Assembly: GCF_002443295.1 (NCBI RefSeq)
Contig: NZ_BAOS01000034.1
Coordinates: 88,642-130,084 of the forward strand
Direction of reading: 5' to 3'
DNA length: 41,443 nucleotides
DNA from: Candidatus Scalindua japonica
GTDB lineage: Bacteria > Planctomycetota > Brocadiia > Brocadiales > Scalinduaceae
Made by a program: the position numbers and the translations under genes. Of this stretch, positions 1 through 21,193 are shown piece by piece (positions within the stretch are counted from its first letter, which is position 1; every line of letters starts with the position of its first letter). The notes under the pieces are model-generated. The model saw only the letters and a program-made list of their open reading frames with translations, did not search any database and was not told the DNA's origin.

Positions 1-780
1 ATGAGAGACCTTGTGCGGTTAATCCGTGAGGAATATAGTGAGACAGTCACGATAATAGTCAGACTTGATAGTGGATTTTTTGATGAGAAAATATTACAAG
101 CATGTGACAATCTTGGAGTAGGATTTATCTGTACTGGCAAGATGTATAAGGGAGTAAAGGAGTATGTAGGTGTCCAGTTAGAGGACCAATGGGATGTCTA
201 CAGCAATAGGAATCAAGAGTGGAAGTATTTGGAGTTTGGTTATAGATGTGATTCGTGGGAGAGGTTTTATCGTGCAATATACACCAGATTGAGTCATGAT
301 GGAGAACAAAGGTTATTGGACTTTGCGCGGCCAGATAATGTAATTCTCACGAATATAGGAGTTAATCCAAAGGTGTTAGCCAACTGTAGTACTCAGGAGG
401 AAGAGAGAAGATTGTTGCATACAGAAACAATTATAGAGAGCCATCATATGAGAGGAGCAGATGAATTACCGCATAGAGGGTTAAAGGATTTTGGATTTGA
501 AGAATTACCGTTTAAGAGATTTGTACCAAATAGTGTAGTATATTATTGCATGCTCATATCATATTTTTTGTTTGAAACATATAAGGAAGATGTATTAGAC
601 GGAGTAATGCCAATCGGCAGCTATGCAACAACTGTAAGGAGAAAGGCATTAGACTTTGCAGCAAAGATAATAGGCACTGGCAGGCAGTTAATCCTTAAAG
701 TAACACAGGCAGTAATGGACAATTTGCACTTTGATATATTATGGCAACGAAGTCAAAAACCCATACCAATAATCATATAA
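1..780 (+). CDS. IS1380-like DDE transposase, C-terminal part (cut by window edge)
   Basis: The reading frame is open from the first base of the window, so the ATG at position 1 may be internal and the N-terminal part of the protein is probably outside. The visible 259 residues carry the catalytic-core signature RLDSGFF near residue 21 and a later block with ESHHMRG and ELPFKRF. Both are typical of IS1380/IS4-type DDE transposases, where the Asp of the first block and the Glu of the second are catalytic. I did not find a convincing terminal inverted repeat in the 280 bases after the stop, and the other end is not visible. Family assignment is from motif recognition. Confidence 0.75.
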   Translation: MRDLVRLIREEYSETVTIIVRLDSGFFDEKILQACDNLGVGFICTGKMYKGVKEYVGVQLEDQWDVYSNRNQEWKYLEFGYRCDSWERFYRAIYTRLSHDGEQRLLDFARPDNVILTNIGVNPKVLANCSTQEEERRLLHTETIIESHHMRGADELPHRGLKDFGFEELPFKRFVPNSVVYYCMLISYFLFETYKEDVLDGVMPIGSYATTVRRKALDFAAKIIGTGRQLILKVTQAVMDNLHFDILWQRSQKPIPIII

Positions 781-5969: not shown

Positions 5970-7187
5970 TTACTCCTCAATGATTTTTACTTTTTTCCCA
6001 TTTTTTAATCTGTCCATGGGAGAAAGTGCTATTCTGTCTCCTGTTTCAAGTCCCGATATGATTTCGACCATTTTATCGAGTCTTCTGCCTGTAGTAACCT
6101 TTTTTTTCTTCACACGGTTACCCATAAGAAGATATACTGCATCATATCCGTCGTTTGTAACGAGAGCAGAAGCAGGTACGGCTCTAACTGGTGTATGTTC
6201 GTTTTCAGCAATTTTTCGCTTGAGAAATGCTACCTTGGCACTCATTTCCGGAAGGATGCTGGATTCTTTATCTAAAAATGCGACCTTGACCAACACTGAT
6301 GCCTTACTCCTGTCGGCTGTAGGCACGATCATGTGTACTTTCCCTCGAAATCGTTTGTCCGGTAATGCATCCAGTTGAATTTCACACGGTTGATCGGCCT
6401 TAACCTGTTCTATGTTAGATTCGGAAACATCTACCTCAACTTGCAGTGAGTCCATGTCAGCAATTGTTACTACAGATGCACGTGCGTTGGCTGCAGCACC
6501 CACAGGTGTTACGATATCGCCTATATCTGCATTTTTTGTAAGAACAACTGCATCAAATGGTGCCCGTAAAAGGCTATATTCAAGATTGACTTCAGCTTCT
6601 TTTAATGCTGACCCGGATGCTTCCAGTGCTGACTTTCTGGCAGCAACAGCCGCATTGGCGCTTTTGTGTCGCGCTTCCGAAATATCGTATTCAGATGCAG
6701 AAGCAACCTCTTCTTCCAATAACTCTTTAATTCGGTTAAAGGCAAGAACCGTTTCTGTGAGTTCGGCTTCTGCCTGGTCAAGTTCAAAACGGGCAACTTC
6801 CCTGTTTGCTTTTGCTTTATCAAGTGCTGCCACAACATCCTTGTTTTCCAATGTTGCAATGATATCTCCTTTTTTTACTATACTTCCTTCCTCCACGAGA
6901 AGGGATTCAAGCCAGCTGGTAATTTTCGAGGAAACGGCAGATCTACGCTGAGCTACTACGTAACCACTTGCATTGAGCAGAGTAAACGTTTGAGAAGGGT
7001 ATATTGTAGTGACGTTGGTAACCTCTACCTTGGTAGAAGGCCTCAAGACACCTGTCGCATACAAAATCCCGGAACCGGCAGAGAGTGAAAGTATAATAAG
7101 CAATAAAAAATACTTTTTTCGTTTTTTATGATGTGTCTGGTATTTTGTCCTGTCAATCCGAAGCCGTGAAAGATCATCAGTGCTCAT
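5970..7187 (-). CDS. periplasmic adaptor (HlyD/MacA family)
   Basis: A 405-residue membrane-fusion protein. One transmembrane anchor (about residues 27-47) follows a basic cytoplasmic tail. A lipoyl/biotinyl half-motif (VEEGSIVKKGDIIATL, about residues 97-112) leads into an Ala/Glu-rich alpha-helical hairpin, then the second lipoyl half (LLRAPFDAVV) and a beta-barrel domain. It is the first gene of the operon adaptor-ATPase-permease-permease. No TolC-like outer-membrane channel is encoded nearby, so one would have to be supplied elsewhere. The substrate cannot be inferred; lipids, peptides and lipoproteins are exported by relatives. Confidence 0.88.
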   Translation of the reverse strand: MSTDDLSRLRIDRTKYQTHHKKRKKYFLLLIILSLSAGSGILYATGVLRPSTKVEVTNVTTIYPSQTFTLLNASGYVVAQRRSAVSSKITSWLESLLVEEGSIVKKGDIIATLENKDVVAALDKAKANREVARFELDQAEAELTETVLAFNRIKELLEEEVASASEYDISEARHKSANAAVAARKSALEASGSALKEAEVNLEYSLLRAPFDAVVLTKNADIGDIVTPVGAAANARASVVTIADMDSLQVEVDVSESNIEQVKADQPCEIQLDALPDKRFRGKVHMIVPTADRSKASVLVKVAFLDKESSILPEMSAKVAFLKRKIAENEHTPVRAVPASALVTNDGYDAVYLLMGNRVKKKKVTTGRRLDKMVEIISGLETGDRIALSPMDRLKNGKKVKIIEE

Positions 7188-7212
7188 AAATCTATTTTGT
7201 TCTCAAAAGAGA

Positions 7213-7399
7213 TAGTTATACCCATCACGAATTGGTTTTCGGTTTTCATTACCAGATTTCACCAGAACTTATAGATTTTTCTCAATCACAAAATCCTCGA
7301 CTTAGCATTGCTAAGCCTCTGGTTTTGTTCAATCGACAAATCAAAATTTCAGGCAAACTCCTGCCCTGAAATTCCTAAAACAACTTCGTAATGGATATA
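7213..7399. repeat. MITE-like imperfect palindrome, about 187 bp
   Basis: The outer about 26 bases at each end (7217-7242 and 7374-7399) are inverted repeats matching at 21 of 26 positions, by my hand alignment. Pairing continues inward through several shorter matched blocks to a perfect central stem, CTTAGCA/TGCTAAG, at 7301-7315. Nested stems also form on each arm, for example ATTTCAGG/CCTGAAAT at 7346-7372. There is no reading frame inside. The architecture fits a non-autonomous mobile element or a large folded RNA. It lies immediately upstream of the export operon adaptor and could influence its expression. Confidence 0.6.
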
Positions 7400-7572
7400 C
7401 AACAATTTTCTCAACTTAAATCCTCCCCTGACCTCTTTATCAGCGAAGAGGAATCGGATTTTCAGGGGTTAATTCATTTCCGTTCTGCTTATTTAATCTA
7501 ACCATACTCATGTATGTACTGCAAGAGTAAATTTAATGTCATAACGAACACTTTTAAGTCCTTTATTGTAAA

Positions 7573-7697
7573 GCATATGCCCAGTTGATAACTCAGGAGA
7601 TGGGGGAAGCCAGTTACGGATGCGAGAGCTGAGGTTGAAAAGTGTACCGGAACGGCAGAATTTTATGCGGAAAAGAGTGAAGAGTAGCTGCAGGATG
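7573..7697 (+). pseudogene. aldehyde dehydrogenase relic
   Basis: Translating from 7573 and moving one base at the run of five G at 7611-7615 gives AYAQLITQEMGKPVTDAR followed by AEVEKCTGTAEFYAEKSEE. The EMGKP and RAEVEKC blocks are diagnostic of NAD(P)-dependent aldehyde dehydrogenases of the succinate-semialdehyde type. A TAG at 7685 ends the frame, and neither the N-terminal nor the catalytic C-terminal part is present. It is a dead fragment of about 40 codons. A perfect 8-bp inverted repeat (CGAACCGG at 7741, CCGGTTCG at 7771) lies just downstream and is unexplained. Confidence 0.6.
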
Positions 7698-7846
7698 ATT
7701 ATCTTTTCTGTTCATATCATTTGGGTGGCCTGCCTGTGCGCGAACCGGAAAATTCGGTTGGCTAAAACTCCCGGTTCGTACATGTTGGCAATACATTCCA
7801 GACTATTCAATAATGATTCAAAATCAGATAGGGAACTTATTAAAAA

Positions 7847-8287
7847 CTACGCTTCCTCTTCACGAAGGGCGGTACCGATATTAAGCAGTTCAGGGGCATT
7901 TTCAAACGTGAGGTATTCAACAGGTTCATCGTGAGGATTATGAAGCTGGTGCCATGCCCAGACAGGTACTTCAAAGATATCACCTTCTTCATAATCTATT
8001 TTATGCCCCTCTATTTCCACATAACCTTTTCCCTTGGTAATAATTGATATCGCGTGATAAGTATGTCTGTGCTTTCTTCCTTGAGATTTGGGTGTTATTC
8101 CGGAGAAAGTAACACTATACCTTGTTGATGGCAAATCAGCCATTGCAATAGGATGTCGTCTCTCAGCAGAAAAATCTTTGTCCACACCTGTTTTTCTTAC
8201 CTGTCTATGGATCAACGAATTCATATCTTCAGGAAGCTGAGGTGTAAGGTTTTTCGGGACCTTTGGAAAATCTTTTGACGTAAACAT
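7847..8287 (-). CDS. cupin-domain protein
   Basis: A protein of about 146 residues. I take ATG 8287 as start because AAGGAGAT lies at an ideal distance upstream; an in-frame ATG at 8332 lacks such a site. The single cupin barrel shows motif 1 as HRHTYHAISIITKGKG with two metal-ligand His residues, and motif 2 as GDIFEVPVWAWHQLHN with the third His. A motif-1 Glu is not at its classical place. Such small cupins range from dioxygenases to metal-binding sensors and the substrate is unknown. No operon partner is evident. Confidence 0.8.
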   Translation of the reverse strand: MFTSKDFPKVPKNLTPQLPEDMNSLIHRQVRKTGVDKDFSAERRHPIAMADLPSTRYSVTFSGITPKSQGRKHRHTYHAISIITKGKGYVEIEGHKIDYEEGDIFEVPVWAWHQLHNPHDEPVEYLTFENAPELLNIGTALREEEA

Positions 8288-8728
8288 AGAGTATCTCCTT
8301 TTAATTAAAGTTGTTAATGACTTAAACCACATACGCTTTGACTTTGTCTAAAAATAGCAGAAACACCAGGTTTGTCTGTTTAGCAGTACAAAAATTCTGC
8401 CTTAAAAGTATTGTCTATTTTAATTTACCTTCATTAGGTGTGCTTAAAGAAAGGAATATACAACATGAATAGACATTATAAAATGATATCACACACATAA
8501 ACTGAATGCAAATACGATATGGATATTTGTTGCAAATGGATATTCTTTACAGGTACAAAATAAACAGAGAAAGTACGGCTTATCCAGATAACGGGATGTG
8601 ATTTAAACAATACAGGTTTGTTTCCTTAAATAGAAAATGTTATAATAAATTTCAAAATGTCTTTTTTATTTTACAACAAAGATTGAAATGTTTGCTTCCA
8701 TATAATTTATATTTGAAAGGAAAATGCC
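8288..8728. other. AT-rich intergenic region, no gene recognised
   Basis: This lies between the divergent cupin and SUMF1-domain genes and has no sustained reading frame. It presumably contains both promoters. The only clear signal is the ribosome binding site AAAGGA at 8716-8721 for the downstream gene. Confidence 0.4.
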
Positions 8729-19777: not shown

Positions 19778-21193
19778 TTATTTAACGAGTCGGAGACTTT
19801 TCCTAGATTTTTTGTTTTTAATTCTTTCTTGGTCGTCTTTTTTGTATTTTTCGATAATTTTATCGTACGTACCGTTATATTTCGCACATCTGATCTTGAG
19901 CATGTTATTAGCATTTTGGGCATACCACCAAGCTCCTGATCGTTTAAGCCTTGTATGGCTAATGAATTTATTAGCGCTTTCAATCGCACCGCTACCAATG
20001 TGATACCCTCCTCGCTTGGTGGTATCGTAATGCATCTTTTCGCAATGATTTGTAAGGTAGGTATAAAACTTATCAATTTTATCCTGAACCTCTTGAGTTT
20101 GCGCTTTCATCTTTCCAAGACCGCCAAGCACATCTTCGTGGTCGCCAAAATGTATTCTTGTCAAAGTCGCCTCGCACCACTGGCGAGACTCTCTTGTCTC
20201 TTTTCCATAATGTGCGTTACCCACACCATGTACATACTCTGAGCAATGGTAGTAGTCGAGGATTTCTTTTGCTGAGGGAAATATCTCTTTGCAACGGTTC
20301 CAAATCCAGTGAGCTCCGTCTCCTATGATTCCCAAGCGTATCTCCGCTTCGGGGATAAGACCTGCCTCCTTGATCTTCACTAGATCTTGAGCTAATTCGT
20401 GATCTTCGCAGACCTGATGCCAGCTGATTAAATGATTAATGCTTGTACCATCGATGAGATAAAGCCTAAAACCTTTAATCTCTTTCCATTCTCCTTTTCC
20501 TCTTTTCTCTTTGCGGCGGTGAGGGCTGGGCTCTGGACGCATCGGGCCGTGGGCTCCATCCAGGGCGAGCATCATAATGGGACGACGAAACTTATTCTTT
20601 GAGATGTTTTCTATCTTTTTGTGAATCTCTTCTTTAGACGGACAGATATCTAAAATCCCCACTTCCTGACCTATGGTATTCGTGGCCTCATGCATATGAT
20701 GTTCGCTTAGCTTTACACCAGTTATCCTCTCGTAGGTCTCGCTGGCCGTCTCATAAGCGGTTTCGCTAGACAACCAGGCTTCAACATCCTGTATATCATA
20801 CTGTTTCGAGGATCGAGACAACCCAAGGGCTTCATCTAATGGATAATTTCCAAAACTGCACGCTCTGCAATAAAAATAAGGTCTCTCCAATTCAAATTGA
20901 CCCGCAAGGGTCTGGATTGTCCTGGATAATTTGTCGTGCCTTTGCATGCTTTTGCCGCAATCGGGGCAGTCACAATTTTGCTGATTCAATAAATGACCGA
21001 ACTTCCTCTTTATCAATCCAAGGATCATCTGACCCAATATTTCGGATCTTTCCTGAAAAACAGCTTTTGAGATTTCTCCTAAATCTTCCATTGGGTACTC
21101 TCGCTCAATCTTGTCAAGTCGCTTGTCCAAAAAGTCATAAAATAAAGTTCTCCAGTTCTCTGATGACTCTGCTTTTCTCGCCGCAAAACCCAA
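19778..21193 (-). CDS. ISKra4-family transposase
   Basis: A 471-residue transposase. An N-terminal region carries a zinc-binding pair (CPDCG near residue 76 and CRAC near 109). The catalytic core shows ALDGAHG (about 214), GDGAHWIWN (about 289), LDYYHCSEYV (about 310) and GSGAIESANK (about 412); the Asp, Asp and Glu of these blocks form the DDE triad. The C-terminal RLKRSGAWWYAQNANNML is the usual family ending. The start is TTG 21193, chosen because GAGGAG lies six bases upstream. It begins 23 bases after the methyltransferase stop, so both genes are probably translated from one transcript. Confidence 0.9.
   Translation of the reverse strand: MGFAARKAESSENWRTLFYDFLDKRLDKIEREYPMEDLGEISKAVFQERSEILGQMILGLIKRKFGHLLNQQNCDCPDCGKSMQRHDKLSRTIQTLAGQFELERPYFYCRACSFGNYPLDEALGLSRSSKQYDIQDVEAWLSSETAYETASETYERITGVKLSEHHMHEATNTIGQEVGILDICPSKEEIHKKIENISKNKFRRPIMMLALDGAHGPMRPEPSPHRRKEKRGKGEWKEIKGFRLYLIDGTSINHLISWHQVCEDHELAQDLVKIKEAGLIPEAEIRLGIIGDGAHWIWNRCKEIFPSAKEILDYYHCSEYVHGVGNAHYGKETRESRQWCEATLTRIHFGDHEDVLGGLGKMKAQTQEVQDKIDKFYTYLTNHCEKMHYDTTKRGGYHIGSGAIESANKFISHTRLKRSGAWWYAQNANNMLKIRCAKYNGTYDKIIEKYKKDDQERIKNKKSRKSLRLVK

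Follow-up and report, generated by a model that had tools for sequence, protein, structure and literature searches.

The stretch of DNA analysed here, 41,443 nucleotides of contig NZ_BAOS01000034.1 of Candidatus Scalindua japonica and referred to as the window, harbours an HlyD-ABC-FtsX export operon that is transcribed from the minus strand. The gene for the HlyD-family adaptor extends from 5970 to 7187 (minus strand), and a self-complementary element is located outside this gene, 29 bp upstream of its ATG start codon at 7187. The initial annotation had placed this segment at 7213–7399. Comparison of copies gives sharp ends at 7217 and 7399 (183 bp including a TA dinucleotide at either border), and only the first four bases, 7213–7216, had to be given up as flanking DNA, being absent from most copies. 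The gene relic that had been suspected on the other side of the element was not confirmed: the next open reading frame is 447 bp off and represents a cupin-domain gene (7847–8332, minus strand). A 104-aa open reading frame at 7620–7934 (plus strand) had no match in Pfam. Just to the right of the element, at about 7422–7470, a second small imperfect hairpin (CCCCTGA...TCAGGGG) was noticed by eye. The window also contains a DDE_Tnp_1_4 transposase gene that is cut by the window start (1–777, plus strand) and a gene for a UPF0236 protein of mobile-element type (19781–21193, minus strand), both of which are unrelated to the element.

The element begins with TATACCCATCACGAA and ends with TTCGTAATGGATATA. 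A left TA (7217–7218) and a right TA (7398–7399) enclose a body of 179 bp (7219–7397) that is common to full-length copies with differing flanks and that is the unit expected to be excised. The left terminal inverted repeat, TATACCCATCACGAATTGGTTTTCGG, comprises positions 7217–7242 on the plus strand, and the right one, which reads TATATCCATTACGAAGTTGTTTTAGG in the inward direction, comprises positions 7374–7399 on the minus strand; counted on the printed sequences, the terminal 26 bases of the two ends are identical at 21 positions. The centre is formed by a perfect 6-bp stem with a loop of three bases (CTTAGC-att-GCTAAG; 7301–7315, plus strand). A repeat finder that relies on exact seeds (9-base seed, 12-base minimum) detected no inverted pair within the element, and the palindrome is therefore an imperfect one. 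As far as visible, the element carries no gene, as had been claimed: the longest open reading frame wholly inside it has 45 aa (TTG start, 7232–7369), and a one-base length difference between the copies of the own genome and other copies (alignment column 56) falls inside this frame. No promoter-like sites were listed within the element, and one terminator-like small hairpin was found on its plus strand, compared to 0.6 expected from shuffled sequences.

Both strands of the element fold beyond chance. A folding energy of −43.5 kcal/mol was calculated for the plus strand (mean of shuffled sequences −25.6; z −5.0), and −22.4 with DNA parameters (z −3.85). The minus strand of 7217–7399 pairs from end to end as a single long hairpin of −62.5 kcal/mol (shuffled mean −35.8; z −6.6). 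None of 200 shuffled sequences was as good in either orientation. Together with the terminal repeats and the perfect central stem, these values bear out the initial description of the segment as self-complementary.

The element is repeated. The own genome (G000), an assembly of 4.81 Mb and 47 contigs, has five full-length and four partial matches, of which the one on contig C1 is an internally deleted derivative of 82 bp with both ends present. Among the 59 genomes searched the repeat was matched in six, the own genome counted, with full copies in Ca. Scalindua isolate Arabian9_MAG_63 (G012, a member of the same genus as the own genome) and Ca. Scalindua sp. SCAELEC01 (G016) and pieces in G004, G007 and G015; related copies are present in Ca. 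Scalindua genomes of two genera. SCAELEC01 has at least 40 strong matches, a lower bound like all copy numbers for this genome, as 40 of 258 candidates were scored. A pattern for the core of the element matched 49 times in SCAELEC01 (reversed control pattern, 0) and a pattern for its end motif 257 times (control, 5). The end-motif sites that were examined, from 20 taken, include truncated copies, mini-derivatives of 36 bp and other sequences, and a complete insertion sequence (IS) was not seen among them. Two of these mini-palindromes (L277, 384–419, and L262, 484–519) consist of hardly more than the two ends of the element. Of the 23 stretches detected in a scan of genome contigs, 22 belong to Ca. 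Scalindua records, and the remaining one is a full copy in a 4.3-kb contig that is binned as Maribacter (JAAETN010000592.1) and is possibly a misbinned Scalindua contig. The viral contigs searched with the end pattern gave no match. There is little sign of insertion inside genes: when the flanks of 38 correctly bounded copies (the deletion derivative L008 being left out) were joined, no open reading frame of at least 90 aa ran across the junction in 35 of them, and a frame of 91–154 aa spanned it in three (L049, L053 and L131). The genome-wide copy search proposed in the initial annotation, in which single-copy occurrence, along with a lack of compensatory changes, would have counted against the proposal, reveals a multi-copy repeat at unrelated sites in the own genome and in relatives.

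Comparison of 22 copies showed that the flanks differ and that the tips TATA...TATA are kept with few exceptions, such as L043, which starts with CTTA. A TA borders the element on either side in 44 of the 55 copies; one outer TA is altered or wrongly placed in the other 11. For eight copies the flanks were joined by one TA and aligned to element-free relatives of the site, and six of these comparisons are gap-free at the junction and have a TA there. The copy L053 on contig C101 of SCAELEC01 is situated in duplicated sequence, and the element-free other copy of that sequence, elsewhere on the contig, agrees at 90 of 92 positions, without gaps and with the TA included. For L109 of SCAELEC01 the own genome provides the empty site (65 of 80 positions identical), and the copies L243, L250, L252 and L129, which reside inside another repeat of about 120 bp, are likewise gap-free at the junction. 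The alignment for L249 has gaps at the junction, and that for L126 was uninterpretable and does not belong to the six clear cases. Five copies in SCAELEC01 (L250, L249, L252, L129 and L243) apparently occupy the same TA within the 120-bp repeat, which reflects either preferential insertion at this site or the inheritance of composite copies. The single TA at the empty sites indicates that the mobile unit has about 179 bp (7219–7397) and that a 2-bp TA target duplication is generated upon insertion, which answers the question for target duplications raised in the initial annotation. The element is short and without a transposase gene, has terminal inverted repeats and dispersed copies, and shows a target-site duplication at empty sites; these are the features of a miniature inverted-repeat transposable element (MITE).

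A search with the DDE_3 model brought up an IS630-type transposase fragment of SCAELEC01 that runs directly into CCTAAAACCATTTCGTAATGAGTATA, a sequence that differs from the MITE right end by few changes. Relatives of this transposase were matched in 27 of the 59 genomes. An intact partner IS is present in G042; it has 1122 bp with the ends TATACCAGTCACGAA and TATACCCATTTCAAA and codes for a transposase of 343 aa that is recognised by the NCBIfam model NF033545 (IS630; 225 bits at a cut-off of 100) as well as by the Pfam DDE_3 and HTH models. G004 has a copy of 1134 bp with ends of the same kind that is frame-shifted (two frames). Six contigs of SCAELEC01 are broken off within the transposase gene and share the same right end with six different flanks; we interpret these breaks as the result of a collapsed multicopy repeat, their usual cause. 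The own genome contains pieces of the transposase on contigs C30 (up to the contig end, with the left end TATACTCGTAGCGAA), C19 and C17. An intact transposase gene with these ends was found neither in the own genome nor in SCAELEC01, both of which gave only pieces and contig breaks, and no transposase was matched in G012 and G007, where the repeat is present as copies or pieces.

The relation between the MITE and this IS becomes apparent from their ends. Of the terminal 32 bases at the right end of the window copy (7368–7399), 28 lie beyond TATA, and 22 of these are identical to the SCAELEC01 IS right end. For the IS right ends of other genomes 21–22 of 28 positions agree in four of five cases and 17 of 28 for G002, and 18 of 28 agree for the end on contig C17 of the own genome; in each of these comparisons none of 2000 shuffled sequences was as good. 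The IS left ends agree with the window ends at 13–16 of 28 positions (0 to 19 of 2000 shuffles as good), and an unrelated IS630 of the own genome, used as a negative control, at 9 of 28 (690 of 2000). Both ends of the MITE resemble the right end of the IS, and the MITE is therefore not a simple internal deletion of a known IS. This arrangement would fit a MITE that was built from two copies of the IS right end; alternatively, the end that is bound better may have been selected. The unrelated IS630-family element of the own genome, which has a length of about 1120 bp, was considered as partner and rejected since its ends (TATTAACCCGGCAATTAAATA...) do not match; this separate element is present in four near-identical copies (L110, L112, L114 and L116) with unrelated ends. 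G004 has a different MITE-like family of 152–175 bp (L071 and L085), the ends of which, TATACCAGTCACGAA and TATACCCATATCAAA, resemble those of the local IS630 copies.

Taken together, we are confident that the segment represents one copy of a MITE, a non-autonomous DNA transposon of about 179 bp, which very probably depends on an IS630-family transposase. The suggestion of a MITE in the initial annotation was right in view of the multiple copies, the TA target with its empty sites and a transposase-bearing partner with matching ends. A palindromic intergenic repeat in many copies could also be of the REP/REPIN type that is moved by a RAYT (Y1) transposase, or a single-stranded element of the IS200/IS605 type. 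The TA duplication at empty sites and the ends that are common to a DDE-type IS630 element make such an origin highly improbable, and REPINs are not known to have target duplications of this kind. The MITE is very probably moved in trans by the IS630-family partner transposase, judging from the shared ends. This enzyme would bind to the inverted repeats, cut the element out and insert it at another TA, as presumed from the anatomy of the element and the mechanism of ISY100 and Tc1/mariner elements. Transposases of the IS630 and Tc1/mariner type cleave the DNA at either end of the element and use TA as the insertion target, and mini-elements of ISY100 that retain 30 bp from each end are as mobile as the complete element (PMC2170065).

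The IS630, ISY100 and Tc1/mariner elements share the TA target duplication with the present family, and their transposase, which binds the ends, combines HTH motifs in its N-terminal part with a DDE domain in its C-terminal part (PMC2170065); they encode their own transposase whereas the MITE encodes none. The nearest published parallel that we found is the pair of RUP and IS630-Spn1 in Streptococcus pneumoniae. RUP is a short, AT-rich MITE, the terminal repeats of which resemble those of an IS630-family element; its copies number around one hundred, with 110 in one genome, and its transcript is predicted to fold with paired terminal repeats (PMC3049150). RUP has 107 bp in contrast to about 179 bp here and occurs in a different host phylum, and the likeness is one of described features. 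Correia elements and ERIC, again compared by description, are prokaryotic MITEs with folding transcripts, as predicted here, and processing by RNase III (Correia) or RNase E (ERIC) is reported in a review (PMC10969869). QMITE2 of Coxiella burnetii is a MITE of 150–190 bp with a very stable predicted transcript hairpin, as in the present case, but has direct repeats of 7–11 nt and variable sequence where the MITE described here has TA (PMC5896051). In the titles and abstract openings inspected on MITEs and repeats in Scalindua or anammox bacteria, neither this family nor any MITE of Scalindua was reported. The MITEs described here form a new family within a well-known kind of element, and the likely source of their transposase is identified.

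The position of the element in front of the export operon invites a different interpretation, namely that of a cis-acting structured RNA leader, a riboswitch-like element or an attenuator, and the initial annotation had considered a large structured RNA. A very stable hairpin on the strand from which the operon is transcribed, 29 bp before the HlyD start, is what such a leader would look like. However, copies of the element adjoin other genes and do so in both orientations, and a search of Rfam with positions 6900–7700 of the window gave no match up to an E-value of 1. Moreover, the HlyD gene and its upstream DNA are matched in G010, G009 and G008 (82, 80 and 78%, respectively), and the element itself was matched in none of these genomes. 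With the flanks of the window copy joined, the match to G009 extends five bases past the insertion point, and those to G010 and G008 end near the start codon; as the right flank has diverged in each of these genomes, the empty site is a one-sided one and weaker than the other empty sites. The presence of the HlyD gene without the element in three relatives implies that the element is not a conserved leader and that the gene does not need it. A dedicated RNA leader of the operon is thus very unlikely and the corresponding suggestion is not supported; the place of the MITE before the export operon is the result of an insertion and not that of a conserved regulatory leader. The window copy presumably landed 29 bp upstream of the operon by transposition, and transcripts that arise by read-through would have the long hairpin of the minus strand in their 5′ leader. 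An effect on operon expression, if there is any, would be secondary.

The two strands of the MITE differ in their folding. The minus strand folds better in all 38 aligned full-length copies, and RNAalifold gave −37.2 for the minus-strand alignment versus −2.67 for the plus-strand alignment, which has almost no consensus structure. When the copies were aligned to their own fold-back with G-U and A-C treated alike, 307 G-U cells were counted on the minus strand versus 58 A-C cells. At the column pairs of the RNAalifold structure, which was fitted to the minus strand, 97.8% of the minus-strand cells are standard, compared to 85.2% of those of the plus strand. Variation was counted in 55 full-length copies, 52 of them distinct. 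At 66 pairs with Watson-Crick as the commonest state in the 52 distinct copies, one-sided variant types that give G-U outnumber those that give A-C by 43 to 15 (p = 3e-4), whereas the same directions at unpaired columns amount to 9 versus 19 (Fisher p = 3e-4). Variants present in at most two copies follow with 27 versus 12 (p = 0.024), and singletons within a cluster, counted in the one cluster that was large enough (47 of the 52 copies), with 18 versus 7 (p = 0.043; control 2 versus 7). A>G changes relate to T>C changes as 26 to 4 at paired and as 8 to 8 at unpaired sites (p = 0.013); the unpaired control columns hold a single C, so that the C>T and G>A part is uncontrolled and the contrast is mainly one of A>G over T>C.

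The asymmetry of G-U over A-C on the minus strand suggests, as a lead, a constraint on the family that acts on a single strand, be it RNA or DNA. It is conceivable, though we consider it rather unlikely, that the minus-strand hairpin is itself selected, either as RNA that arises by read-through or from an own promoter, or as single-stranded DNA; this would add to the explanation as a MITE. The uniform behaviour of the copies, the RNAalifold difference and the excess of G-U among cells, variant types, rare variants and singletons speak for such a selection. Against it, the copies are related, most of them in one cluster, and the counts are not independent; the strand was picked after the folds had been seen; the control columns hold their single C; and transversion mismatches, with 52 types at paired sites, are as common as those that give G-U. 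Compensatory changes, which the initial annotation had proposed to look for in relatives, are present on the minus strand, and the 21 cells with a double change exceed the value of all 500 shuffles (9.5 in shuffles), but the number of pairs concerned (5 versus 3.3 in shuffles) was reached by 44 of 500. Further pair types on the minus strand (40 versus 39.2) were reached by 180 of 500 shuffles. The plus strand has 8 pairs and 30 cells with double changes; being as many there, the double changes speak for the palindrome and not for one strand. If read-through from the host were the reason, copies should favour one orientation relative to their neighbours; a simple open reading frame heuristic for the 55 copies gave 18 with both neighbouring frames in the minus-strand direction and 13 with both in the opposite direction, and thus no clear bias. 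Two sequences of the related MITE family of G004 do not share the strand preference (minimum free energies of −62.5/−60.9 and −48.3/−39.5). A strand-biased mutation process is another possible cause of the asymmetry. The idea that these MITEs are strand-specific hairpin modules of RNA or single-stranded DNA, in which the surviving variants at paired sites keep a minus-strand G-U and folding affects the survival or spread of the element itself, is accordingly a tentative one that we regard as somewhat doubtful.

The MITE described here adds a high-copy family with a likely source of transposase to the Scalindua-type anammox bacteria, and this family accounts for recurrent intergenic hairpins in Scalindua genomes. 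If the idea of strand-specific modules is true, the hairpins of this family would not be mere by-products of its inverted repeats. Should the strand asymmetry hold, the family would offer a direct test of whether hairpins of bacterial MITEs are under selection as RNA, one that goes further than arguing from their folding energy.
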